Under the pieces are notes generated by a model. The model was not told the DNA's origin. It did not search any database and saw nothing but the letters and a program-made list of their open reading frames with translations. The translations under genes were made by a program, and so were the position numbers. Shown piece after piece: positions 40,557-56,739 of a DNA stretch of 64,000 nt. Source of the DNA: Candidatus Sulfotelmatobacter sp. (lineage in GTDB: Bacteria; Acidobacteriota; Terriglobia; Terriglobales; Acidobacteriaceae); NCBI GenBank assembly GCA_025462865.1, contig JAOAPI010000117.1, positions 1-64,000 on the forward strand, in the 5' to 3' direction. The stretch's first letter is position 1; the number at the start of each line of letters is the position of its first letter.

Positions 40557-40962
40557 TGAGGCTTAGGACCTTGTTTTAGAGGATTCTGTATCGCTTATTC
40601 ATGCTGCCCGTCTTTAAAGGAAGTGTAACATTCCAAAAAACTACCCGGCTCATGTGTGGAAATCTTCTCGACGGACCTTATTTCCGGCGTTAATGTACTT
40701 CCGGTATGGCACGGAAGTGCCATTTACCAACTTCCGGCTTGGGCCTAAAGTCTCTCAAACGATGTACTCAAGACGAACCGATATTGGCCGTCTTGTAAGA
40801 ACGAGATCAAAGCGCCCCCTCTTCGTATCGCGTTCCGCGCAGTAAAAAGCCTCAAATTGTTGGTGCAGGTCAAGTGAAACCGCTGCCCTGACGAAAATCA
40901 ACGACTGTCGGCATCCTGCGGTAATGTCTAAGTCCATCACCCGTCTTAAGGAGAACCACAGA
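40557..40962. other. Intergenic region upstream of first LuxR-type gene
   Basis: This 406-bp gap separates two divergent genes. It contains the conserved palindromic element described separately and an AAGGAG Shine-Dalgarno nine bases before the regulator start. A 63-codon open frame here overlaps the element and shows no protein-like features; I see no gene. Confidence 0.6.
40707..40765 (+). promoter_or_regulatory. Conserved palindromic element, copy 1
   Basis: Begins with the palindrome TGGCACGGAAGTGCCA (6+6 with a 4-nt centre), continues TTTACC, and 38 bp from its start has CTAAAGTCTCTCAA followed by CGATGT. The same parts with the same spacing lie upstream of the second regulator gene; 46 of 59 bases are identical without gaps. 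The two differing bases in the palindrome lie in its centre. It is about 200 bp before the regulator start. It may be an operator for an autoregulatory circuit or a structured leader; which is not known. Confidence 0.6.
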
Positions 40963-41799
40963 ATGGCTCAGCATGCGACTCCATTGTTGAACTCAGACAG
41001 AATTCGTGTACTTGCCGCGGACAGCACTCGCATGAGCAGCCAGTTGCTTGCGCAGGCGTTGGCGCAGGATGGTCAATTTCACGTCACAGGGATCGATCCC
41101 CATTCGACTTCCATTCTGGCGGCGGTGGCTGACGAACGGCCCCACGTGGTGCTGATGAGTTCAATTCTGGAGGATTCCACCAGCACGGGATTTGATCTGA
41201 TCCGGCAGGTATGCGCGGCTCATCCCGATACCCGCGTGGTGCTGATGATGGACACTTCCAAGCGCTCGGCAGTAGTAGAGGCATTCCGTTGCGGCGCACA
41301 CGGCGTCTTCTCGCGCACTGAGTCCCCAAAATTGCTGGCGAAATGCATTTGCAGCGTCCATCAAGGGCAGGTGTGGGCGAACAGTTCGGAGTTGCGTTTC
41401 CTTCTCGAAGCCCTTTGTGAGTCAGAGCCGGTGCGCGTGGTGGATGCGGGCGGCGAATCGATGCTATCGAAGCGCGAGCAGGATGTGGTGCGATGCGTAG
41501 CCGAAGGATTGTCTAACCGGGAGATCGCGGGCCGGTTGGGACTTACCGAACATACGGTTAAGAACTACCTTTTCCGTATTTTTGACAAATTGGGTGTTTC
41601 CAGCCGCGTCGAAGTCGTGCTCTATGCTTTCCGCTTTCGCAAGGATTTAGTGCGACCCCAGGCGAGCGAGACTTCCTGCGTGCAATGCTCCGGAACATTC
41701 GTGGCTGCGCCGCCATCAAGACCGGCGGTTGCCACGCCGGTTGCGGTGAAGAGGTCCTTGGAAGCAGCGGGGAAACTAGCGCGCCAGGTTCGCTGCTAG
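40963..41799 (+). CDS. LuxR/NarL-type response regulator with degenerate receiver
   Basis: DNA-binding regulator of 278 residues. The N-terminal domain has the receiver fold pattern (IRVLAADSTRMSSQLL, then PHVVLMSS and GAHGVFSRT). Where the phospho-accepting Asp should end the third strand there is Ser66, and the conserved Lys near GVFS is replaced by Arg/Thr, so normal phosphorylation is unlikely. The C-terminal LuxR HTH is intact: LSKREQDVVRCVAEGLSNREIA, then TEHTVKNYLFRIFDKLGV. The start was chosen at an ATG with AAGGAG nine bases upstream, matching the start of the paralogue at 47116; an ATG 13 codons earlier is not supported. No histidine kinase gene is nearby. Confidence 0.9.
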   Translation: MAQHATPLLNSDRIRVLAADSTRMSSQLLAQALAQDGQFHVTGIDPHSTSILAAVADERPHVVLMSSILEDSTSTGFDLIRQVCAAHPDTRVVLMMDTSKRSAVVEAFRCGAHGVFSRTESPKLLAKCICSVHQGQVWANSSELRFLLEALCESEPVRVVDAGGESMLSKREQDVVRCVAEGLSNREIAGRLGLTEHTVKNYLFRIFDKLGVSSRVEVVLYAFRFRKDLVRPQASETSCVQCSGTFVAAPPSRPAVATPVAVKRSLEAAGKLARQVRC

Positions 41800-41842
41800 A
41801 AGCTAACAATTCAGTTCAACAGTTCAAGACTGCCGTATTCAC

Positions 41843-43150
41843 TTAAGCGGGAATTCGGTCCACGGACTGCGCTGCCAAAGTGGGCACGGTCGATTCCTTT
41901 GCGGCGACCCTTGTGGGCCCCTCCCGTAGGAGGCGATCCGGGCAGATCAGCTCCAGAACCGGAGTCGTCATAAACGTGGTGAACAGCGCCATGAGCACCA
42001 TCATTGAAAACAGGGCCGGCGAGATCACCTTGATGTCCAGGCCAATATTCAGGATGACCAGCTCCATCAGGCCTCGCGTATTCATGAGCGTGCCCAGCCC
42101 GGCGGCTTCTCTCGCGGGCATGCCTGACAACCACGAAGCCAGCGTTGAGCCGCCAAGTTTTCCCACCGTTGCCACCAGAATGATCAAGCCGCAGTAGATC
42201 CACATTTCCTGACCCTTTACCAGACCGATGTTGGTGCGCAAGCCGGTAAAGGCAAAGAACAAGGGAAGCAGCATCGTGACTGTGATGGTTTCGAAGCGGT
42301 CAACAATGTAGCGGACGAATTTCTGCTCCTTAGGCATGATCGCGCCCATAAGGAATGAGCCGAAAAGCAGATGTATTCCCAGCCATTCGGTGCACAGAGC
42401 CGATGTCAGAACCAATAGGAGCATCAGCGCCATCAGGTTCTCGCTAAGCTGGCCACGCTCGCGATAGATGGTCTCATAGCGCCTCAGCATTCGCCGCACC
42501 CCATAAATCATGATCACGGCAAACGCAACGATGCCTCCGATGGTCAACCAGATTGAAGTAGGGTTGTGCGCGGAGCGGATCAATACCACGATGTAGGCGA
42601 GAATGCACCAACCGGTTACATCGTCAACTGCTGCGCAGGCGATGGCGACGGTTCCGAGACGGCTGCCCAGAAGATCACGCTCCGCCAGGATGCGCGCCAG
42701 CACAGGGAACGCCGTAATACTCATCGCCGCTCCCATGAACAGAGCGAAGCTGGTGAACGTTACGCTGTCATCGGAGAGCCTGGGATACAGATAAAGCGAC
42801 AGGAAAGCCGCTAACACGAATGGTGCAGTAATGCTGACGTGACTGGTAAGCACGGCAGCGTGTCCGTGTTTCTTCAATTCCTTAGGATTGATTCCCAATC
42901 CCACCAGGAACATGAAGACCACCACGCCGATTTGGCTTAGGGCGTTGAGAAATCCGAGGCTGACCGATGGAAACAGGTAAGCCGAAACTCCTGGCGCCAT
43001 CCATCCCAGCAAGGAGGGTCCCAGTAAGATTCCGGCGAACATCTCGCCGACCACCCGAGGCTGGCCGATTCTACGGAAGATGCTGCCTACGCCTCGACAC
43101 ACTGCCAGGATCACCGCAATCTGAAGCACCAGCTTGAAGAGATCGGGCAT
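41843..43150 (-). CDS. CPA2-type cation:proton antiporter
   Basis: Integral membrane Na+(or K+)/H+ exchanger of the Kef/NapA (CPA2) class, 435 residues and about 12 hydrophobic segments. Visible family features are GQPRVVGEMFAGILLGPSLLG in the second helix, GAAMSITAFPVLARILAE, and AIACAAVDDVTGW, whose adjacent Asp residues match the ion-binding site. There is no C-terminal TrkA-N regulatory domain, so it is the short form. The ATG overlaps the stop codon of the upstream gene (TGATG) and has GAGGAGA about eight bases before it. It probably handles pH or salt homeostasis; its position next to the halogenase-like genes may be chance. Confidence 0.9.
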   Translation of the reverse strand: MPDLFKLVLQIAVILAVCRGVGSIFRRIGQPRVVGEMFAGILLGPSLLGWMAPGVSAYLFPSVSLGFLNALSQIGVVVFMFLVGLGINPKELKKHGHAAVLTSHVSITAPFVLAAFLSLYLYPRLSDDSVTFTSFALFMGAAMSITAFPVLARILAERDLLGSRLGTVAIACAAVDDVTGWCILAYIVVLIRSAHNPTSIWLTIGGIVAFAVIMIYGVRRMLRRYETIYRERGQLSENLMALMLLLVLTSALCTEWLGIHLLFGSFLMGAIMPKEQKFVRYIVDRFETITVTMLLPLFFAFTGLRTNIGLVKGQEMWIYCGLIILVATVGKLGGSTLASWLSGMPAREAAGLGTLMNTRGLMELVILNIGLDIKVISPALFSMMVLMALFTTFMTTPVLELICPDRLLREGPTRVAAKESTVPTLAAQSVDRIPA

Positions 43151-43653
43151 CAGCGCAATCTCCTCTTCGTTGCAGGCGCGAGTCGAACCGCGCGGAACCC
43201 CACCGAGCCACAAGATGGACAATCATCCACCGACAGCATTCCAGAGAGAGATCGTGGATCCATGTTCGGATCGACCGTTGCTACCATGTCGAGTTTGCGC
43301 CCGGCCCCGCAACCGGCTTCCGCCGACCAACTGATGGCCGGTACAAGGGACGCCTTAAGCGTCGTTCCGTCGAGTACGCCCGAAGCAGTTGACTTCGGGC
43401 CACTCGCGAAGGTGAGTGTGAAGTTTCTGCCGGATTGCGAGATGGCTATCGCAGTTTCAGGATTCTGTGCAAGAGTTTTCCCGCAGGGCAGGGAAGACAG
43501 ACGAACTGGATCAGCGTGCAGCTGCCAGGTGCCATCTACCGAAATCGGCGCGGTCAAGGTGCGACCCTTCTTCAACACGCCCACCAGTCCCACGATGGGC
43601 AGTACCACTAAGAGAGCGTAAGCGATGATGAAATTCCTGTTGGTGTGGGACAT
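43150..43653 (-). CDS. Membrane-anchored protein with CxxC motif
   Basis: Hypothetical 167-residue protein with one N-terminal membrane helix (FIIAYALLVVLPIVGLVGVL) and a probably periplasmic beta-rich domain containing VDGTWQLHADP and ISQSGRNFTLTF, resembling a small lipocalin-like or META-type barrel. Near the C-terminus it has DDCPSCGSVGF, a CxxC that could be redox-active or bind metal, plus two more Cys. The ATG has GAGG a few bases upstream. It is translationally coupled to the antiporter by a TGATG overlap, so it may be an accessory subunit of the transporter; this is inference. Confidence 0.7.
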   Translation of the reverse strand: MSHTNRNFIIAYALLVVLPIVGLVGVLKKGRTLTAPISVDGTWQLHADPVRLSSLPCGKTLAQNPETAIAISQSGRNFTLTFASGPKSTASGVLDGTTLKASLVPAISWSAEAGCGAGRKLDMVATVDPNMDPRSLSGMLSVDDCPSCGSVGFRAVRLAPATKRRLR

Positions 43654-43772
43654 TCGGCCTCACCCTCACGGGAGGATTCACGTTTTTACGCAGCGCTCTC
43701 ACGGCGCAGCGCAACATCCGGATAAAACAAAAAGCAGACTCAAATCATCCGATCGGCTTCGAAAAATCGCGA

Positions 43773-45122
43773 TCAGGCCCCGGGGCTGAACGCGTTCGAG
43801 GTCAAATCGCCCAGCAGCTTGTGCCAGGGATGTTTCTCATTCTGCTCGACCTCGGACACCATCTTGCGCATTTTATCCAGTACCGGCGGAGTAGCGTCGT
43901 CGTACACATCGCCCTGCAAAAGCTTTAGTACATCAAGGCGATAGCGAGGATCGTTAATGAAATACGTGAACAGCACGTTGAGCCGGTAGTAGACGGTAAT
44001 AAAGTCATACCAGTTCTTCGTTCCCAGGCGCAATGTATTCTCGAAGGTCGCAAAACTCTGGCGGGAGAAATCATTTTTCTCCAGCGCGCCGAGGATATCT
44101 TTGTGCGCAAAGCGCGAGCTGTTGAGGGCGATGCTGACTCCCGTAGAAAAGATCGGGTCCACAAAACGCCCAGCGTCGCCGACCATCAAGAACCGATCTC
44201 CACACAGTTGCTTCATGGCATAACTGTAGTCGCCCTCGTCTTTGAAAGGACGAATGCGATTGGCCTTTCGCAAGGTTTCTTCGATCATGGGCCGCGTGCC
44301 AACGGAACTCCAGAAAAACTTCTCGCGGTCTTCTTTGGATTTGGCGAAATTCTTTTTCTGGGTCACAACGCCGATGCTGGTTACGTCGTCGGAGATCGGA
44401 ATCTGCCAGATCCAGGTATTCGAAATGGGCAGGAAGTGAATATAAATGTAATCGAGATTGGTATCCCGCTTCGCAAATACCTTGCGGTCGTAGCTGTCGA
44501 ACCATGAGTGGATAGCGTATTGATCGAAGACTGTGTCCTGGACTTTGAGTTTCATCTGATTGCCCAGGAAAGTATTGCGGCCGCTGGCGTCCACCACCAT
44601 TCGCGCGCTGACATTCATTTCCTTCGGACCCATGTTGAAGCGGATGATGGGTTCCTTGGGACCGAAATCGACTGCGCTCACCTTGATGCCGTCGTAAACC
44701 GTGGCGCCAAGTCTGTTAGCGTGCTGCAGAAGCATTAGATCGAACTTGCCGCGGTCAACGTGGTAGGTATGGTTCTTGTCCACGCCGGCCTGCTGGCGTT
44801 CGTCGAAGCGGATATCAACGTTGCAATCGGGCGCCAGACCCTCGAGATCATGGACGTAAGGCATCTTCTTGTCATCCGTTGTCCACACCGCGCCGTATTT
44901 GTGCGGGAATTTCGCGGCCTCCATTTGGGGCAGGAAATCCAGATCCCTGAAAACCCGCGTGGAAGAAGGAACGAGCGACTCTCCCACATGCGGTCGCGGG
45001 AACAATTCTCGCTCAAACACCACGCAACTTACGCCAGCCTTGGCCAGGTAGGCGGCCATAGACGATCCGGCGGGTCCTCCGCCAATAATAGCGACATCAA
45101 AATCCGGCTTCGTAATAACCAA
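43773..45122 (-). CDS. Flavin-dependent halogenase-like FAD oxidoreductase (first)
   Basis: Probable FAD monooxygenase of the tryptophan/phenol halogenase group, 449 residues. The FAD Rossmann motif is IIGGGPAG (14-19). HVGESLVPS (45-53) and HKYGAVW with Lys75, in the position of the catalytic Lys of halogenases, follow. TWIWQIP (236-242) fits the WxWxIP signature of flavin halogenases, and GDAGRFVDPIFSTGV is the second FAD motif. Halogenases use FADH2, O2 and chloride or bromide and act on an aromatic or pyrrole substrate; the substrate here is unknown and a plain oxidoreductase is possible. The start is a TTG with AGGAGG five bases upstream. It is 49 bp downstream of its paralogue and probably co-transcribed with it. 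Confidence 0.78.
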   Translation of the reverse strand: MVITKPDFDVAIIGGGPAGSSMAAYLAKAGVSCVVFERELFPRPHVGESLVPSSTRVFRDLDFLPQMEAAKFPHKYGAVWTTDDKKMPYVHDLEGLAPDCNVDIRFDERQQAGVDKNHTYHVDRGKFDLMLLQHANRLGATVYDGIKVSAVDFGPKEPIIRFNMGPKEMNVSARMVVDASGRNTFLGNQMKLKVQDTVFDQYAIHSWFDSYDRKVFAKRDTNLDYIYIHFLPISNTWIWQIPISDDVTSIGVVTQKKNFAKSKEDREKFFWSSVGTRPMIEETLRKANRIRPFKDEGDYSYAMKQLCGDRFLMVGDAGRFVDPIFSTGVSIALNSSRFAHKDILGALEKNDFSRQSFATFENTLRLGTKNWYDFITVYYRLNVLFTYFINDPRYRLDVLKLLQGDVYDDATPPVLDKMRKMVSEVEQNEKHPWHKLLGDLTSNAFSPGA

Positions 45123-45171
45123 CGCTTCCTCCTGAAATCTTCAATTGCCCCAAGTGGTGGTTCGCAGCGCG

Positions 45172-46548
45172 CTACTGGCTCGCCTGCTTGAACGCGTCCA
45201 CGGTCATGTCTCCCAGCAACTTGTGCCACGGATGCTTAGTGTTCTGCTCGACCTCGGACACCATTTTCTTCATTTTCTCGAGTACCGGGGGCGCGGCATC
45301 GTCGTAGACGTCGCCTTGCAGCAGTTTGAGCACATCCAGTCGATAACGAGGGTCCCCGACGAAATACGTAAACAGCACATTCAGGCGGTAGTAGACCGAA
45401 ATAAATTCGTACCAATTCTTGGTGCCCAGGCGAAGCTTGGTCTCATACTCAGCAAAGCCTTCGCGCGAAAAGTCGTTCTTTTCCAAGGAGCGCAAGACAT
45501 TCGTGTGAGCGAAGCGTGCGCTGTTCAGCGCAATGCTGACGCCGGTGGAAAAAATTGGATCAACGAATCGCCCGGCGTCGCCGACCAGCATGAAACGGTC
45601 TCCGCAAAGCTGTTTCATGGCATAGCTGTAATCGCCCTCGTCTTTGAAGGAGTGCATCTGATCCGCTTTTTTCAATTTCTCCCTGAGCAGGGGACGCGTT
45701 CCAACGGCCTCCCAGAAAAACTGTTCACGGTCTTGGCGCGACTTGGCGAAGTTTTTCTTTTGCGTGACCACGCCGATGCTGGTGACGGAGTCGGTGATGG
45801 GTATCTGCCAGATCCAGGTGTTGGAGATTGGCAGGAAGTGGATGAAAATGAAATCGAGCTGAGCATCTTTCTTGGCGAAGGCCCTGCGGTCGTAACCATC
45901 GAACCAGGTATGAATGGCGTACTGATCGAACACCGGATCTTTGATCTTCAACTTCATCTGATTGCCCAGAAAAGTATTACGGCCGCTACAGTCGATGACC
46001 ATCCGGGCGCTGACGCCCATTTCCTTGGAACCCATGTTGAAGCGAACAATAGGTTCCTTGGGGCCGAAATCGACATCCTTCACTTTCACGCCCTCATAAA
46101 CCGCGGCGCCCAACTTATTGGCATGTTGGAGCAGCATCAGGTCAAACTTGCTGCGATCGACGTGATACGTATATTCGCGGTCGACCCCTTCTTGTTGGCG
46201 TTCGTTAAAGCGAATCTCGACGTGGGACTCCGGCTTAATCTGATCTTTTTCTTTGTCCTTGAATCCACCCTGAAAGTTCATTTCGTAAGCGCCCTGGTCC
46301 TCAGCAGTCCAGGCAGCTCCGAACTTGTGCGGGAATTTGGCTTCTTCCATCTGGCCCAGGAAATCGAGATCGCGGAAAACCCTCATCGCAGAGGGAACAA
46401 GCGACTCGCCCACATGGGGGCGCGGAAACAACTCGCGCTCGAAGACCACGCAACTTACTCCCGCTTTGGCGAGATAGGCACCCATCGAACCGCCCGCGGG
46501 CCCTCCACCAATGATGGCAACGTCAAAATCCGGCTTCGTAAGAACCAA
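45172..46548 (-). CDS. Flavin-dependent halogenase-like FAD oxidoreductase (second)
   Basis: Close paralogue (458 residues) of the downstream gene, with the same motifs: IIGGGPAG, HVGESLVPS, HKFGAAW with the candidate catalytic Lys, TWIWQIP and GDAGRFVDPIFSTGV. It differs by an inserted charged loop near residue 95 (KDKEKDQIK region) that replaces part of the substrate-facing surface in the paralogue, so substrates may differ. The start is a TTG with AAGGAG eight bases upstream, the same unusual start codon as its paralogue. It is divergent from the second LuxR-type gene across a 567-bp gap. The pair could halogenate two positions of one molecule, or act as a heterodimer; both are guesses. 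Confidence 0.78.
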   Translation of the reverse strand: MVLTKPDFDVAIIGGGPAGGSMGAYLAKAGVSCVVFERELFPRPHVGESLVPSAMRVFRDLDFLGQMEEAKFPHKFGAAWTAEDQGAYEMNFQGGFKDKEKDQIKPESHVEIRFNERQQEGVDREYTYHVDRSKFDLMLLQHANKLGAAVYEGVKVKDVDFGPKEPIVRFNMGSKEMGVSARMVIDCSGRNTFLGNQMKLKIKDPVFDQYAIHTWFDGYDRRAFAKKDAQLDFIFIHFLPISNTWIWQIPITDSVTSIGVVTQKKNFAKSRQDREQFFWEAVGTRPLLREKLKKADQMHSFKDEGDYSYAMKQLCGDRFMLVGDAGRFVDPIFSTGVSIALNSARFAHTNVLRSLEKNDFSREGFAEYETKLRLGTKNWYEFISVYYRLNVLFTYFVGDPRYRLDVLKLLQGDVYDDAAPPVLEKMKKMVSEVEQNTKHPWHKLLGDMTVDAFKQASQ

Positions 46549-47115
46549 TGTACTGACTCCTTTTAAGGACTTAAGAGATGGGGTGCTGCGAAAAATCGGT
46601 CGTGTGGGGGATAGACCAGCGCACGCTGTGTTTTCACACTATGAGCTTTGCTCGTCGGCTGTGTCAAGGAGACCTTCTACCCCATTTCTTCATCGACTCT
46701 TTAGTAACATCAGCTTGTTACCCACCATATTTCATGGCTGTTTGGGGGCAAAAAATCGCGAGGCTCCAAGTCACCGGTAAAGTTTTTTGGTCGTACACGA
46801 TGATCGTTTGTTGACACGAGCAGGCGCAACTACTCGAAGACGAAGGCAACCTATCGTGTCACGATATTACTAATAATAAAATGGCACTCAAGTGCCATTT
46901 ACCCAAGCGTTGCCTGAGACTAAAGTCTCTCAATCGATGTGACGCGAATGGGTGATGTAACGACCAAGCCCGTCTCCGTGAATCCAACAGAAACCCCCGG
47001 AAACGATTTGCGCGGCTTAGCATCCCCCGCTGATGTATGCCGCCAAGAGCAACCAGATACCCGAAGGCAGCTAGGAGTCTCGCTAGCCAATTCTCACTAA
47101 GGGGAAATCGACAGA
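46549..47115. other. Divergent regulatory region between halogenase-like and LuxR-type genes
   Basis: The longest gene-free stretch in the window (567 bp). It holds the second copy of the conserved palindromic element, a 5-bp inverted repeat GTAAC-8-GTTAC at 46704-46721, and a Shine-Dalgarno for each divergent gene. AT-rich DNA (46865-46881) lies directly before the palindrome and could be a -10 region. No protein-coding signal is seen; two short open frames in it have no recognisable features. Confidence 0.6.
46882..46940 (+). promoter_or_regulatory. Conserved palindromic element, copy 2
   Basis: Palindrome TGGCACTCAAGTGCCA (here a perfect 7+7 with a 2-nt centre), then TTTACC, and at the same 38-bp offset CTAAAGTCTCTCAA followed by CGATGT. 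It matches copy 1 at 46 of 59 positions with no gap. It lies about 175 bp before the second regulator start. The shared layout suggests that both regulator genes answer to the same factor, perhaps one of the regulators themselves. Confidence 0.6.
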
Positions 47116-47958
47116 ATGGCCCAACAGCTTTCGACTCTTTCACGGAACAATTCTCAGAAAATACGGGTCCTCGCTGCTGACAGTACCCGGATGAGCAGCC
47201 AATTACTTGCCGACGCTCTGGCCCGGGACCGGCAGTTCGAGGTTACGGGCGTTGAGCCCAAGACGGCGTCAATTATGGAAGCTGTCGGCCGGCAGAAGCC
47301 TCACGTCGTGCTCTTGAGTTCGGCCCTGGAAGCATCCGGAACCTTGGGCTTTGAGCTCACACGACAACTTCGTTCCACGCACGCAGACGTCCAGGTAGTC
47401 CTGCTTATGGACTCTACCCACTCTTCCGCTGTGGTTGAGGCGTTTCGTTGTGGAGCACGAGGAGTGTTCTCGCGGACCCAGTCTTCCAGCACGCTGGTCA
47501 GGTGCATCAGCAGTGTTCATCAAGGCCAGGTATGGGCGAACAGCACCGAGTTGCGCTACTTGCTGGAAGCTTTGCGCGAATCAGAACCGCTCCAGCTTAC
47601 CGACTCGGGTGGTAAAACAATTCTCTCCAAGCGCGAGCAGGATGTGGTTCGCTGCCTGGCAGAAGGATTGTCGAACCGCGAGATCGCAGGTCAGTTAAAG
47701 CTGACGGAGCATACGGTGAAGAATTATCTGTTCCGGATCTTCGACAAGCTGGGCGTGTCGAGCCGCGTGGAAGTCGTGCTCTACGCCTTCCGCTTTCGGA
47801 AGGATTTGCTGGAAGCTCCTCCTCAAAGTACTGAGACACGCGCGGTCGTTCTGGGACCGATACTGGCGAAGCCCTTTAAACCAAATGCGGGTGTACCACT
47901 GGGAATGAGAAGCGCGACGGAGCCGGTAAAGGAATTGGCATACCGAGCCCGCATGTAA
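47116..47958 (+). CDS. LuxR/NarL-type response regulator with degenerate receiver (paralogue)
   Basis: Paralogue (280 residues) of the regulator at 40963, similar over the whole length including IRVLAADSTRMSSQLL and the HTH LSKREQDVVRCLAEGLSNREIA with TEHTVKNYLFRIFDKLGV. Again the phospho-Asp position is Ser (PHVVLLSS, Ser68) and the conserved Lys is replaced (GVFSRT). The recognition helices are nearly identical, so both probably bind the same DNA site. The last 50 residues differ. ATG with AAGGGG about ten bases upstream. It is convergent with lhgO and divergent from the halogenase-like pair. Confidence 0.9.
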   Translation: MAQQLSTLSRNNSQKIRVLAADSTRMSSQLLADALARDRQFEVTGVEPKTASIMEAVGRQKPHVVLLSSALEASGTLGFELTRQLRSTHADVQVVLLMDSTHSSAVVEAFRCGARGVFSRTQSSSTLVRCISSVHQGQVWANSTELRYLLEALRESEPLQLTDSGGKTILSKREQDVVRCLAEGLSNREIAGQLKLTEHTVKNYLFRIFDKLGVSSRVEVVLYAFRFRKDLLEAPPQSTETRAVVLGPILAKPFKPNAGVPLGMRSATEPVKELAYRARM

Positions 47959-48011: not shown

Positions 48012-49229
48012 TCAGCGCCAGCCAAACTTTTGTGCAGCCATATCGGCGATGACTCGTCCGATGGGAAGGGACGCGGTCGCAGCGGGAGAAGGAACATTGA
48101 GCACGTGCAGCATCCTCTCCGAAGGGACAAATTGGAAATCATCCACGAGCGTGCCGTCGCGGTTCATCGCCTGAGCTCGAACCCCGGAGCCGCCCGGGAC
48201 GAGATCTTTCTCGCTTAGCTCTGGCACCAGGCGCCGCAGGGCACGAACGAATTCTGATTTCGAAAAAGACCTGTGGAACTCATTCGCTCCGCTGCGCCAG
48301 TGCTTCGCTGCCATCCGCCAGAATCCAGGAAACGCAAGAGACGACGCGAGGTCCCGCAGGCTGATGTCGAACCGCCGGTAGCCTTCGCGCCGGAAGGCGA
48401 AGACGGCGTTGGGGCCCGCGTCTACGCGGCCATTTATCCTGCGCGTGAAATGAACGCCGAGAAACGGAAACTGCGGATCAGGCACAGGATAGATTAGCCC
48501 CCGCACCAGCGACGATCTCTCGGGTATCAGATCGTAGTACTCGCCGCGGAATGGAACGATCCTTACAGTCGGTTTATCGCCGGCCATCCGGCTGATGCGA
48601 TCACTAAATAATCCGGCGCAGTTGATGATGTGGCTTGCGGAGAATGCCGAGCGGTTCGTCTCGACTACGACTTCACTTGAAGAACGCCGGATTCCCGTTA
48701 CCTCGGTGGACGTTTGAATTACTCCTCCCTGCAAGCGAACAAGCTCGGCGTATTTCACACAGACCGCAGCGTAATCAGTGATGCCAGTGGAAGGCACCAG
48801 CAAGGCTCTCAGTCCGTTGGCGTGGGGTTCCATCTCCCGCAGTTGTTCCGCTCCGACGAGCTGCAATCCTTTAAGGCCGTTGGTTTCTCCGCGTCTGCGG
48901 AGTTCTTCCAGTTGGGAGAATTCGTCTGGGCTAGTCGCCACAATTACTTTGCCGGAGAGTTCGTGAGCAATTCCGTGCATGCGGCAGAATTCGACCATGG
49001 CCCGCGCGCCTTCGACGCATAGCCTGGCCTTGAGCGATCCCGGCTTATAGTAAATCCCGGAATGAATGACACCGCTGTTGTGGCTGCTCTGATGCTGGCC
49101 TACGCGATTTTCTTTCTCCACCAGGACGAGGCGAAGATCGGGAAAACGGTTGGTGATCGCGAGGGCGACGGCAAGGCCGACAATGCCTCCGCCGACGATG
49201 ATGACGTCGTAGGGTTCAGTCACGAACAA
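48012..49229 (-). CDS. lhgO: L-2-hydroxyglutarate oxidase
   Basis: FAD enzyme that oxidises L-2-hydroxyglutarate to 2-oxoglutarate, a metabolite-repair and carbon-salvage step, usually passing electrons to quinone at the membrane. The 405-residue length is normal. The N-terminus has YDVIIVGGGIVGLAVALAI (FAD-binding), followed by the diagnostic SSHNSGVIHSGIYYKPGSLKA, and later IINCAGLFSDRI and FRGEYYDL. These match LhgO/YgaF rather than other DAO-family oxidases. The adjacent plus-strand regulator ends 53 bp away and is convergent, so no functional link is implied. Confidence 0.93.
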   Translation of the reverse strand: MFVTEPYDVIIVGGGIVGLAVALAITNRFPDLRLVLVEKENRVGQHQSSHNSGVIHSGIYYKPGSLKARLCVEGARAMVEFCRMHGIAHELSGKVIVATSPDEFSQLEELRRRGETNGLKGLQLVGAEQLREMEPHANGLRALLVPSTGITDYAAVCVKYAELVRLQGGVIQTSTEVTGIRRSSSEVVVETNRSAFSASHIINCAGLFSDRISRMAGDKPTVRIVPFRGEYYDLIPERSSLVRGLIYPVPDPQFPFLGVHFTRRINGRVDAGPNAVFAFRREGYRRFDISLRDLASSLAFPGFWRMAAKHWRSGANEFHRSFSKSEFVRALRRLVPELSEKDLVPGGSGVRAQAMNRDGTLVDDFQFVPSERMLHVLNVPSPAATASLPIGRVIADMAAQKFGWR

Positions 49230-53859: not shown

Positions 53860-54077
53860 AGACGTCAACTAGCAAGGAGTATGGGAGCGCAGTAGAGCCC
53901 GGTCAAAACAAAACGCAGGAAAATGAGCCCGGCGGGGCCATTTCGGGAAGTGGAAAGGCCCTGACGCGAGTCCGCAAATTCTGATACGAGGAGCATCATT
54001 CTGCACGCGCAGGCTTCGGTCTATAGAATTCCCAACGCGCACCAATGCTCGGCGAAAACAAATCGAGATGCTTTCCA

Positions 54078-54875
54078 ATGGCAAAACAGGTTCATGGATT
54101 TCTCAGCTTGATTGCTTCTCTTGCTCTCCTGTGCGGAGTGGCATCTCCGCGGGCTGAATCGGCGGAGCGCGTCATCAACGTTGCGGCGGCGGCCGACTTG
54201 AGTGCCGCTCTTCAGGAACTCGCTGCCAATTATGAAAAACACTCTGGCGTTGAAGTGAAACTTTCTTTTGGCGCGTCGGGAGCGTTGACTCAGCAGATTG
54301 AAAATGGAGCTCCCTTTGATGTTTTCTTTTCGGCAGATGCGGATTATCCCCGACAGTTGATTGGAGGCGGCGAAGGTGATGGCGCAACCGTGTATCGTTA
54401 TGCCGTGGGACGATTGGCGCTCTGGGTTCCGAAGGATTCGCAGCTTGACGTCGAGCATAAGGGCATGGATGTTCTCGGCGATCTGTCCGTAAAGAAGATT
54501 GCCATTGCTAATCCCCAACACGCACCGTATGGGCGTGCAGCAGTAGCCGCCCTGAAGCATTACGGGTTGTATGAAAAAGTCAGCGATCGGCTGGTGTTAG
54601 GAGAAAATGTTTCGCAGGCGGCGCAGTTTGCCGAGTCCGGTAATGCGCAGGTGGGCATAGTAGCGTTGGCGCATGCCATGGCCCCCGCAATGAAAGGTAA
54701 AGGAAGGTACTGGATAATCCCCGCTGACGCTTACCCTCCGCTGAACCAAGAAGTGGTGGTGATGTTACATTCCCCGCACCGGCAGGATGCTATGGCCTTT
54801 CTTGAATATGTGAAGACACCTGAGGCTGCCGCAATATTTCGGCGTTACGGCTTCAGTTCGCCTGAACAAAAGTAG
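54078..54875 (+). CDS. modA: Molybdate ABC transporter substrate-binding protein
   Basis: Periplasmic molybdate (or tungstate) receptor, 265 residues. A signal peptide (FLSLIASLALLCGVASPRAESA) precedes NVAAAADLSAALQELA, the oxyanion-binding loop of ModA, followed by FGASGALTQQIENGAPFDVFFSAD, the other signature segment. A later QVGIVALAHA strand also fits. The ATG at the start of MAKQVHG is preferred because it gives a normal signal peptide; an ATG 11 codons earlier is possible. It is first of a modABC operon with gaps of 24 and 10 bp. No ModE-type site is recognisable upstream. Confidence 0.93.
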   Translation: MAKQVHGFLSLIASLALLCGVASPRAESAERVINVAAAADLSAALQELAANYEKHSGVEVKLSFGASGALTQQIENGAPFDVFFSADADYPRQLIGGGEGDGATVYRYAVGRLALWVPKDSQLDVEHKGMDVLGDLSVKKIAIANPQHAPYGRAAVAALKHYGLYEKVSDRLVLGENVSQAAQFAESGNAQVGIVALAHAMAPAMKGKGRYWIIPADAYPPLNQEVVVMLHSPHRQDAMAFLEYVKTPEAAAIFRRYGFSSPEQK

Positions 54876-54899
54876 CGCTCGCGAGGAAGAACAAGACAA

Positions 54900-55589
54900 A
54901 TGTCCATCGACTGGCAATCATTCCGGCTCACGATAGAACTTGCAGTGGTCGTGTCAGCGATTCTGTTAATAGTCGGTCTGCCGCTCGCATCCTGGCTCGC
55001 TTTTTCCCGCTGGCGCTGGAAGTTCTTCGTGGAAGCAATTGTGGCCTTGCCGATTGTGCTTCCGCCGACGGTCCTCGGGTTCTATGTGCTCGTTGCTCTC
55101 GGTTCACGAAGTCCGCTTGGACAATGGTGGCAATCCCTGACCGGCCACACGCTGGCGTTCACTTTCACTGGTCTCGTGATCGGCTCGGTCCTGTACAGCC
55201 TGCCATTCGCCGTGCAACCTTTCACCTCGTCGTTCTCATCAGTTGATCGCAAGCTGCTGGCAGCCTCTGCCACGCTGGGCGGCTCACCGCTGCGTACTTT
55301 CTTCCGTGTGGTAATTCCTCTTTCCGTGCCGGGCTTGGTCACGGGAATGGTCTTGGCGTTCGCTCACACGATGGGCGAGTTCGGAGTAGTTCTGATGATT
55401 GGGGGCAACATTCCCGGCGTGACTCGTACAGTGTCGATTGATATTTACGATCAAGTGCAAGCCTCCAACTATGCAGCGGCCAATGCCACAGCGTTGGTAC
55501 TGTTGGTCCTTTGCTTCGCCATGCTAGCCACCGTTTATGGCTTGAACCGACGAACCTCAGGAGTGTGGACCGTGGGACCGGTGAAGTAG
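54900..55589 (+). CDS. modB: Molybdate ABC transporter permease
   Basis: Inner-membrane channel subunit, 229 residues with about five hydrophobic helices. The cytoplasmic coupling loop that docks on the ATPase is visible as AASATLGGSPLRTFFRVVIPLSVPGL (the EAA-type motif). The N-terminal ALPIVLPPTVLGFYVLV and GEFGVVLMIGGNIPG segments are typical of ModB. It is 24 bp after modA and 10 bp before modC, so the three are surely one operon. Confidence 0.94.
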   Translation: MSIDWQSFRLTIELAVVVSAILLIVGLPLASWLAFSRWRWKFFVEAIVALPIVLPPTVLGFYVLVALGSRSPLGQWWQSLTGHTLAFTFTGLVIGSVLYSLPFAVQPFTSSFSSVDRKLLAASATLGGSPLRTFFRVVIPLSVPGLVTGMVLAFAHTMGEFGVVLMIGGNIPGVTRTVSIDIYDQVQASNYAAANATALVLLVLCFAMLATVYGLNRRTSGVWTVGPVK

Positions 55590-55599
55590 GCGAATCTTC

Positions 55600-56739
55600 A
55601 TGCCCAGCCCTGCACCGCCAAAAGCCGACAACCAAACGTTGCATGCACGCATTGCCAAGAGCTTTCCTTCCAGGGAACATCAATTCTCTTTGGATGTGGA
55701 GTTCAGCGTTGCGCCCGGATTCACCATTCTGTTCGGCCCGTCGGGGTCCGGGAAGACCACCCTGCTCGACTGCATCGCGGGACTCGCAACGCCAGACGCA
55801 GGGTGCATCGTAGTCGGAGAGCACGTCTTGTGTGACATTACGACTCGCTTTAGCGTGCCCGTTGCCAAGCGTTTTGTGGGATATGTTTTGCAGGATCTTG
55901 CTCTTTTCCCGCACCTGACCGTCGAGCAGAATGTCGAATATGGTCTCGCACACATTTCGCGCCTCGAGCGAAAGCAGCGAGCGGCGGCGATGCTGGAGGA
56001 ATTTCGCATCGCGCACTTGCGACAGCAGCGGCCTCAGGAAATATCAGGCGGGGAGCGGCAGCGAGTCGCGCTGGCGCGAGCGTTGGTGACCGACCCGTCT
56101 GTGCTGTTGCTGGATGAGCCGCTGGCAGCGTTGGACGCAGCAACCAAGGCAAAGATAATCAACGATCTTCGTCGCTGGAATGAGGCCCATCGCATCCCGA
56201 TTCTGTACGTCACTCACAGCCGCGAAGAAGTGATCGCTCTGGGCGAACGCGTACTGGTAATCGAGCGTGGCCACATCATCGCGCAGGGCGCTCCACATGC
56301 TGTGCTGAGCGCCCCTCTTCAGGAAACAGTGGCGCAGTTGGCCGGTTTTGAAAACATCTTCGATGCGAAGGTCTGGCTGGTGCACGAAGATCGCGGCACG
56401 ATGACGTGCCGATTGCCAGGCGAACCATCAGATAGCTTTGTGCTACTGGAAACACCTCTGATTCGGGCAGAACAGGGCTCCAACATACGCGTGGGAATTC
56501 GAGCGGGCGACGTTCTGCTTGCCATCACAGAGCCGGTTGGACTGAGCGCCCGCAACGTGATTGCCGGCCGCTTGGTTTCGCTGGAAAGGCGGGACATGAT
56601 GATCGTGGTACGTGTGAATTGTGGAGTTGAGATCGAGGTTCACCTCACGCTGGCAGCGCGCGACTCCCTGGGTCTGGTTGAGGGAAGCGAGGTCTGGCTG
56701 GTGATTAAGACATACTCTTGTCATCTTATGCAGAAGTGA
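55600..56739 (+). CDS. modC: Molybdate ABC transporter ATPase
   Basis: Cytoplasmic ATPase that powers molybdate uptake, 379 residues. Walker A is GPSGSGKTT (46-54), the Q-loop VLQDLALFPHL, the ABC signature ISGGERQRVALARAL, Walker B LLLDEPLAALD and the switch His in VTHSREE. The C-terminal 120 residues form a regulatory TOBE/Mop-like domain (SARNVIAGRLVSLE) that binds molybdate in characterised ModC proteins. The stop codon is 11 bp from the stop of the convergent glycosyltransferase gene, so there is almost no room for a terminator. Confidence 0.94.
   Translation: MPSPAPPKADNQTLHARIAKSFPSREHQFSLDVEFSVAPGFTILFGPSGSGKTTLLDCIAGLATPDAGCIVVGEHVLCDITTRFSVPVAKRFVGYVLQDLALFPHLTVEQNVEYGLAHISRLERKQRAAAMLEEFRIAHLRQQRPQEISGGERQRVALARALVTDPSVLLLDEPLAALDAATKAKIINDLRRWNEAHRIPILYVTHSREEVIALGERVLVIERGHIIAQGAPHAVLSAPLQETVAQLAGFENIFDAKVWLVHEDRGTMTCRLPGEPSDSFVLLETPLIRAEQGSNIRVGIRAGDVLLAITEPVGLSARNVIAGRLVSLERRDMMIVVRVNCGVEIEVHLTLAARDSLGLVEGSEVWLVIKTYSCHLMQK

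Follow-up and report, generated by a model that had tools for sequence, protein, structure and literature searches.

The stretch of DNA analysed here, which we refer to as the window, comprises the first 64,000 nucleotides (forward strand) of contig JAOAPI010000117.1 of the Candidatus Sulfotelmatobacter sp. assembly GCA_025462865.1, and its open reading frame (ORF) listing places at 40708-47958 two LuxR-type regulator genes (LuxR1 and LuxR2) flanking a tandem pair of halogenase genes (Hal2 and Hal1) together with a coupled antiporter/CxxC protein pair. We find that the four genes between the regulators are a real and conserved halogenase-transport unit of the PltA kind, which most likely serves a pyrrole nonribosomal peptide synthetase (NRPS) pathway encoded elsewhere in the genome. 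The explanation that we favour, and consider probable if well short of secure, is a split halogenated-pyrrole pathway in which halogenation and export or self-protection are encoded at this locus and the assembly line at another. A first-pass annotation of the window had described twin paralogous LuxR regulators around tandem paralogous halogenase-like genes and the antiporter/CxxC pair, an architecture confirmed by pairwise identities of 64% (LuxR1 and LuxR2) and 78% (Hal1 and Hal2). Its term 'undescribed module' was too strong, the enzymes falling in a known halogenase group; what we probably have is a natural-product pathway of a familiar type arranged in a new way, with tandem halogenases away from the pyrrole assembly genes. 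The features of the locus, in window coordinates, are as follows.

40708..40728 (+): palindromic operator-like site before LuxR1, an inverted repeat touching -35-like TTTACC (40723-40728)
40924..41799 (+), likely true start 40963: LuxR1, NarL/LuxR-type regulator with an Asp-less receiver (Pfam GerE 3e-18, Response_reg 7e-8; receiver residues)
41843..43222 (-), likely true start 43150, overlapping the CxxC stop: CPA2-type cation/proton antiporter (Pfam Na_H_Exchanger 5e-58)
43150..43653 (-): CxxC protein, membrane-anchored, with four invariant Cys and a predicted calycin-like beta-barrel (alignment and AlphaFold2)
43773..45122 (-): Hal1, PltA/Mpy16/ChlB4-type flavin-dependent halogenase (PDB profile matches, identity, motifs)
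45172..46548 (-): Hal2, second PltA/Mpy16/ChlB4-type halogenase and first gene of the cassette (same basis as Hal1)
46638..46680 (-): halogenase-operon promoter block GTAGAAGGTCTCC-TTGACA-N18-CATAGT (conserved block; -35 and -10 by eye)
46883..46903 (+): operator-like palindrome preceding LuxR2, with -35-like TTTACC at 46898-46903 and -10-like TAAAGT at 46921-46926 (by eye)
47116..47958 (+): LuxR2, which is paralogous to LuxR1 and likewise has an Asp-less receiver (Pfam, pairwise identity, receiver residues)

On the minus strand the genes run Hal2, Hal1, CxxC protein, antiporter. The gaps are short and the last two genes overlap as TGATG, so that a single Hal2-Hal1-CxxC-antiporter operon is likely. 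No Rfam element was found at 38-50 kb of the window.

Classification of the halogenases

A profile built from 25 relatives and searched against the PDB matched ChlB4, Mpy16 and PltA almost from end to end at E about 1e-199, the next-best solved structure following at 1.7e-51, and Hal1 and Hal2 each share 54-55% identity with each of the three enzymes. The GxGxxG motif for flavin adenine dinucleotide (FAD), the WxWxIP motif and K75 are invariant in 25/25 sequences, K75 aligning with the second Lys residue in the 'FPKKFG' stretch of PltA, whose catalytic Lys we take to be the residue numbered K73. In published accounts, GxGxxG, WxWxIP and a catalytic Lys are given as halogenase motifs (PMC5945002), variant B halogenases use carrier-bound substrates (PMC5945002; PMC8407142), and PltA and Mpy16 dichlorinate a pyrrolyl-S-carrier (PMC12670696). 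Hal1 and Hal2 probably belong to the PltA group of these variant B flavin-dependent enzymes, and genes that had been called halogenase-like look, by homology and motifs, like true halogenases.

In a short tree search Hal1 and Hal2 emerged as old paralogues within the genus. Cassettes of the type found in genome G013, which have another gene order, take their second enzyme from a different branch (about 69% identical to Hal1), and the tandem pairing therefore probably arose more than once. Further halogenases were seen in the genus, comprising a lineage with 84-85% identity to Hal1, whose neighbourhood differs but is shared in part (L090, L091 and L107, from G011, G022 and G034) and a second halogenase, about 62% identical, elsewhere in the genomes of G006 (L105) and G004 (L106). 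The copy in L105 adjoins a probable P450 gene; an AMP ligase reading of the gene beside it was rejected, its match in the genome of the window falling in the P450 part of a fusion protein on contig C7, described below.

A candidate pyrrole assembly line on another contig

The cassette lies on contig C98, and genes resembling PltE, PltF and PltL lie on contig C7 of the same genome. No halogenase of the PltA family was found on C7. Besides the PltE-like dehydrogenase and the PltF-like protein, which is an adenylation enzyme, this contig encodes a carrier of 92 amino acids, a methyltransferase, a hexapeptide transferase and NRPS proteins whose domains run C-A-T-TE and P450-A-T-TE. The best PDB match of the PltE-like protein is 4irn, a prolyl-acyl carrier protein dehydrogenase that we take to be AnaB, and its best NCBIfam matches, RedW and PigA, fall below their cut-offs. 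The PltF-like profile matched PltF (6o6e) at 475 bits in one domain, against about 310 bits per single LgrA domain, and a C7 adenylation (A) domain code read by hand is DLFYLALVCK, the PltF-type code being DLLYLALVCK. The 92-residue carrier has PltL as its best PDB match (5e-6). Homologues for proline adenylation (with proline specificity as predicted), prolyl-carrier dehydrogenation and the carrier are all present in the genome, divided from the halogenases between C7 and C98 and not gathered in one cluster. The earlier suggestion that the substrate comes from elsewhere is probably right, with the PltE/PltF/PltL-like genes and NRPS of C7 as its likely source.

Seven carrier matches to PF00550 were found in the genome, three of them on C7, and other carrier domains lie on C31 (86 amino acids), C47 (an 862-residue frame) and C116 (a 931-residue frame). 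The C31 carrier, which lies beside AMP-ligases, was considered as PltL and set aside, those ligases being only 22-29% identical to PltF-type references. The pyrrole NRPS cluster at C7:3600-29130 (L219, L220) has genes of the exopolysaccharide type among its own (Wzz, sugar transferase, glycosyltransferase, NusG), and in most of the relatives mapped it is found together with NusG, Fis and a kinase-like gene.

Co-occurrence was examined in 61 genomes, namely 37 of the genus (own included) and 24 more distant ones, with the gene maps behind neighbourhood counts drawn from tblastn. Within the genus, halogenase and PltE occur together in 19 genomes, halogenase alone in three, PltE alone in one and neither in 14 (Fisher p=1.5e-6), the corresponding counts being 13, 1, 1 and 5 (p=0.002) in the 20 genomes whose listed completeness is 90% or more, and both values overstate the association because the genomes are related and not independent. 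PltF-like matches at E<1e-200 are present in 22/37, of which 19 are halogenase-positive. The 24 more distant genomes held no halogenase or PltE at the thresholds used and four had weaker PltF matches, while in an order-wide sample halogenases at E<=1e-150 were patchy, occurring in 18 of 298 genomes and three of 70 genera.

Physical linkage was also observed. In G023 the halogenase comes after the pyrrole cluster's NRPS genes, and in G035 and G014 it adjoins a PltE homologue; PltE, PltF and halogenase fall within 15 kb in G023 only among genus genomes, and outside the genus in L143, L144, L145, L146 and L187 (Acidobacteria), among others. We also examined 60 named halogenase loci from among the best 80 of 223 matches, some of them from the same assemblies as the genus genomes (L142, L163, L164), and found a PltE homologue of at least 38% identity in the flanks of 26 and of at least 50% in six. 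The nearest named relatives of the window's genome are acidobacterial metagenome-assembled genomes, of which several carry the label Candidatus Sulfotelmatobacter and several have an isolate name like 'palsa'.

The antiporter and its membrane-anchored partner

An antiporter lies near the halogenases in 16 of the 22 halogenase-positive genus genomes (window included); all 16 genomes with a tandem pair have it, 15 of them together with the CxxC gene, and in the six single-halogenase genomes the 5.9 to 18 kb covered in each gave no antiporter or CxxC match. Among the named loci an antiporter homologue is present in 17/60, within 6 kb in 16, and these antiporter-linked loci come from Acidobacteria, Actinobacteria, Chloroflexota and Gemmatimonadota.

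A 17-sequence alignment gives the CxxC family one N-terminal helix and four invariant cysteines. Its AlphaFold2 model (mean predicted local distance difference test score, pLDDT, 76.9; predicted template modelling score, pTM, 0.61) contains a beta-barrel-like domain for which Foldseek returned weak matches to fatty-acid-binding proteins and PvdP, with avidins lower and a best E of 6e-4. From this fold and the repeated linkage, the antiporter and CxxC protein may bind or export a hydrophobic product, or may protect the producer against it. Among the top-ranked papers of the open-access literature that we covered (titles and abstract openings, with most subscription papers outside it), none was found that connects an antiporter with pyrrole halogenases or deals with this locus in Acidobacteria.

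Regulators and promoter elements

LuxR1 and LuxR2 both possess the receiver and GerE helix-turn-helix domain of NarL/LuxR-type response regulators (Pfam). The abnormality of their receivers, noted at first pass, extends to 16/16 aligned homologues, in which Ser replaces the phospho-acceptor Asp, Asp the conserved Thr and Arg the conserved Lys, making these atypical (Asp-less) regulators.

The same palindromic element does precede both genes. Before LuxR1, the -35-like TTTACC that it touches is followed by a 17-nt spacer and -10-like TAAAGT at 40746-40751 (by eye). The palindrome has two matches in the window, against 0.02 expected from shuffles, and the 6.08-Mb genome contains no intact copy apart from these two regulator-promoter sites; matches with up to three mismatches (23 forward, 18 reverse) do not exceed a reversed-pattern control (27, 26). 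A regulator-promoter pattern combining the right half-site with -10-like TAAAGTC gave 12 matches in 10/61 genomes and none when reversed as control, 11 of them preceding LuxR1 or LuxR2 homologues and the twelfth (G000:C186) lying inside ORFs. A dispersed repeat is ruled out as the identity of the palindrome by the genome count and this search. Thirteen aligned regulator promoters share TGGCAC-NNN-AGTGCCATTTAC, with variation, then a 17-18 nt spacer and CTAAAGTC; this alignment omits the diverged LuxR2 promoters of G004, G008 and G024, which match at 14/18 positions (G029 at 12/18). Most remoter members of the regulator family have the half-site at a similar distance (13-17/18 positions, chance level not computed), and it is not kept before the members in L079 and L108. 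As the inverted repeat touches the -35 of the regulator's own gene, it is best read as autoregulation, and the palindrome is probably an autoregulatory element of LuxR1 and LuxR2.

A sigma-54 promoter at the palindrome (TGGCAC...TGC) was rejected by eye, the spacing being one off, and palindromic near-matches of the form GGCACGGCAGTGCCGGGTA elsewhere in the genome proved to be an unrelated double-hairpin repeat, of which five copies were aligned and a sixth was seen. This dispersed repeat reads CCCGGCAC-NNN(N)-GTGCCGGG with an adjoining second hairpin, GTCCC-NN(N)-GGGAC, and occurs around position 1500 of L010, L016, L017, L018 and L019 (C8, C61 and C62 of the same genome).

The halogenase operon has a conserved element of its own. 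The block GTAGAAGGTCTC(C)TTGAC stands upstream of Hal2 in 9/9 aligned genomes with the same cassette order (0-3 mismatches), including G010 and G030, neither of which has a regulator beside the cassette. In its strict form with -10-like ATAGT it occurs in 3/61 genomes, always before Hal2, and it was not seen in G013-type cassettes. A loose scan of the fetched loci (up to three mismatches) added three matches, each with three mismatches and with chance level not computed, at L085:10220, L144:362 and L259:17865, the last within the pyrrole-cluster stretch of G013.

Regulators and halogenases keep company in part. The first-pass annotation had named, as evidence that would refute its module, related genomes with the two in unrelated places, and the genomes bear this out by half. 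Close twin regulators flank the cassette in 4/37 genus genomes (G000, G004, G008, G024), L122 (halogenases 94-97% identical) has LuxR1 only, G028 has a remoter family member about 5.6 kb beyond the antiporter, and the contig of G036 ends there. A close homologue, defined as scoring over 300 bits, is held by 12 genus genomes, eight of which have halogenases within about 3 kb of it; G029 (100% complete), G009 (72%) and G012 (74%) hold one with no halogenase match, and G007 has the two on separate contigs. In the tree, the LuxR1 and LuxR2 types separate from a clade found at NusG-led clusters. Seven of that clade's 10 rows have NusG no more than about 5.5 kb away and a Fis homologue close by, and five of these seven have pyrrole genes on the same stretch; a sister clade has seven rows away from any NusG-led cluster edge. 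In G010, G030, G025, G035 and G014 the pyrrole cluster is bordered by a regulator of the same family, 53-61% identical to LuxR1.

Beyond LuxR2 the window encodes an L-2-hydroxyglutarate oxidase (48012-49229, minus strand; NCBIfam 569 bits, cut-off 299). Further on, at 54045-56739 (plus strand), are a solute-binding protein (SBP_bac_11) and an ABC ATPase with a TOBE domain, which from their domain content may be a molybdate-type transporter.

Alternative explanations

A number of observations weigh against the split-pathway reading. Halogenase occurs without a PltE match in G007, G011 and G028 (86, 98 and 88% complete), PltE without halogenase in G025, and a strong PltF match without halogenase in G009, G025 and G032. 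PltE-like enzymes may stop at dehydroproline, the whole-chain score of LgrA (two A domains together) is above that of PltF, the 92-residue carrier of C7 is not among the PF00550 matches, and the PltE and antiporter matches of about 30-45% identity in other phyla may be general family members. On C7 there is no Hal2 promoter block at up to three mismatches, no palindrome with fewer than five and no half-site with fewer than two, and therefore no shared cis-element ties the two loci. Pyrrole is also not the sole option for the substrate, since ChlB4 is as close as PltA and is postulated to act on carrier-bound salicylate (PMC8407142). The halogenases might accordingly act on another carrier-bound aromatic, such as salicylate or tyrosine, from a different synthetase, with the link to C7 coincidental; the further carriers on C31, C47 and C116 and the nearly complete G011 favour this, and we nonetheless think it decidedly unlikely given the genus-wide co-occurrence with PltE and PltF and the clustering in G023, G035, G014, L145, L146 and L187. 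Far less probable still is that Hal1 and Hal2 are flavin monooxygenases, a reading for which one could cite a CmlS halogenase match far below its NCBIfam cut-off and matches to maturase/monooxygenase models, against a Pfam Trp_halogenase match above cut-off, a near-full-length match at 54-55% identity to three solved halogenases, WxWxIP and the catalytic Lys.

The role of the regulators is subject to a different balance, in that a close LuxR2-type homologue stands beside L-2-hydroxyglutarate oxidase in 11/12 genomes, three of them without a halogenase match, a neighbourhood more constant than that with the halogenases and a further point against the split pathway as a whole. That the regulators belong to this oxidase or to another function, the cassette being merely inserted alongside, would also suit G010 and G030, where the cassette adjoins the oxidase without a regulator; regulator and oxidase are convergent, however, and not co-transcribed, and the related clade at NusG-led clusters points elsewhere, leaving this account unlikely. 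Slightly better placed, and still doubtful, is the single circuit proposed at first pass, in which LuxR1 and LuxR2 directly switch the halogenase operon and the LuxR2 palindrome also serves the divergent Hal2 promoter. In its favour, the LuxR2 site sits in the intergenic region common with Hal2, the cassette adjoins a regulator in the eight genomes noted above and LuxR1 is seen solely beside it (four genomes and L122). The palindrome, on the other hand, abuts a promoter pointing to LuxR2, and 14 of the 22 halogenase-positive genomes, contig ends permitting, have no close regulator homologue beside the halogenases. As a halogenase operator the palindrome is unsupported, the Hal2 promoter having its own, different block that is kept in two genomes without an adjacent regulator. 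Control of both the halogenase operon and C7 by LuxR1 and LuxR2 is nevertheless plausible.

Proposed pathway and significance

In the split halogenated-pyrrole pathway, homology suggests that the PltF-like enzyme of C7 would activate proline on the PltL-like carrier, that the PltE-like dehydrogenase would oxidise the carrier-bound proline toward pyrrole, and that the NRPS modules would extend it. Hal2 and Hal1, judging from their subfamily, would halogenate the pyrrole in trans while it is bound to the carrier, using FADH2, O2 and either chloride or bromide, and the antiporter with its beta-barrel partner would export the product or provide protection. The conserved promoters suggest that LuxR1 and LuxR2, independently of phosphorylation, would each bind the palindrome that lies immediately before the -35 in its own promoter. 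Atypical regulators in antibiotic pathways have precedents, as do heterodimers (PMC12632262, PMC4125116, PMC4395418), and end-product sensing of the RedZ/JadR1 kind could be envisaged here by analogy only (PMC12632262); for PapR6, a published test did not support ligand control. A more elaborate scheme, which we regard as a long shot, is a self-monitoring dispersed system in uncultured Acidobacteria, in which a carrier-specific halogenase pair would divide the halogenation steps in trans, the CPA2-type antiporter and calycin-like binding protein would shield the producer from a proton-carrying product, and homo- or heterodimers of the twin Asp-less regulators would sense that product and autoregulate.

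A forest-soil survey states that little is known of which enzymes and microbes give rise to the organohalogens of soil (PMC4926216). The locus offers a specific and testable source in uncultured soil Acidobacteria, in the form of a predicted set of halogenated-pyrrole parts, which, being split over two loci, would escape a search that looks for halogenases within clusters. The pairing of a PltA-type halogenase with a cation/proton antiporter recurs in several phyla, which suggests a self-protection or export step.

Comparison with known systems

Hal1 and Hal2 share with PltA, Mpy16 and ChlB4 near-full-length homology, the FAD motif, WxWxIP and the catalytic Lys, and differ in being two tandem, anciently diverged copies away from carrier and adenylation genes. 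Pyrrole loading of the pyoluteorin, marinopyrrole and pyrrolomycin type is matched by the PltF, PltE and PltL homologues together on C7, whereas here the NRPS cluster is mixed with exopolysaccharide-type genes and the halogenases are on another contig. The antiporter matches CPA2/Kef-type cation-proton antiporters over the transmembrane domain, unlike them scoring below the NCBIfam CPA2 cut-off (TIGR00932, 160.6 bits against 238.3) and being coupled to a predicted calycin-like anchored protein and halogenases. Finally, RedZ, JadR1, PapR6 and BldM/WhiI are, like LuxR1 and LuxR2, orphan regulators, most with degenerate receiver pockets, and BldM likewise has a palindromic site, if a different one (PMC4125116, PMC12632262); the likeness is one of description, and in contrast to those systems twin paralogues here flank a tailoring cassette.

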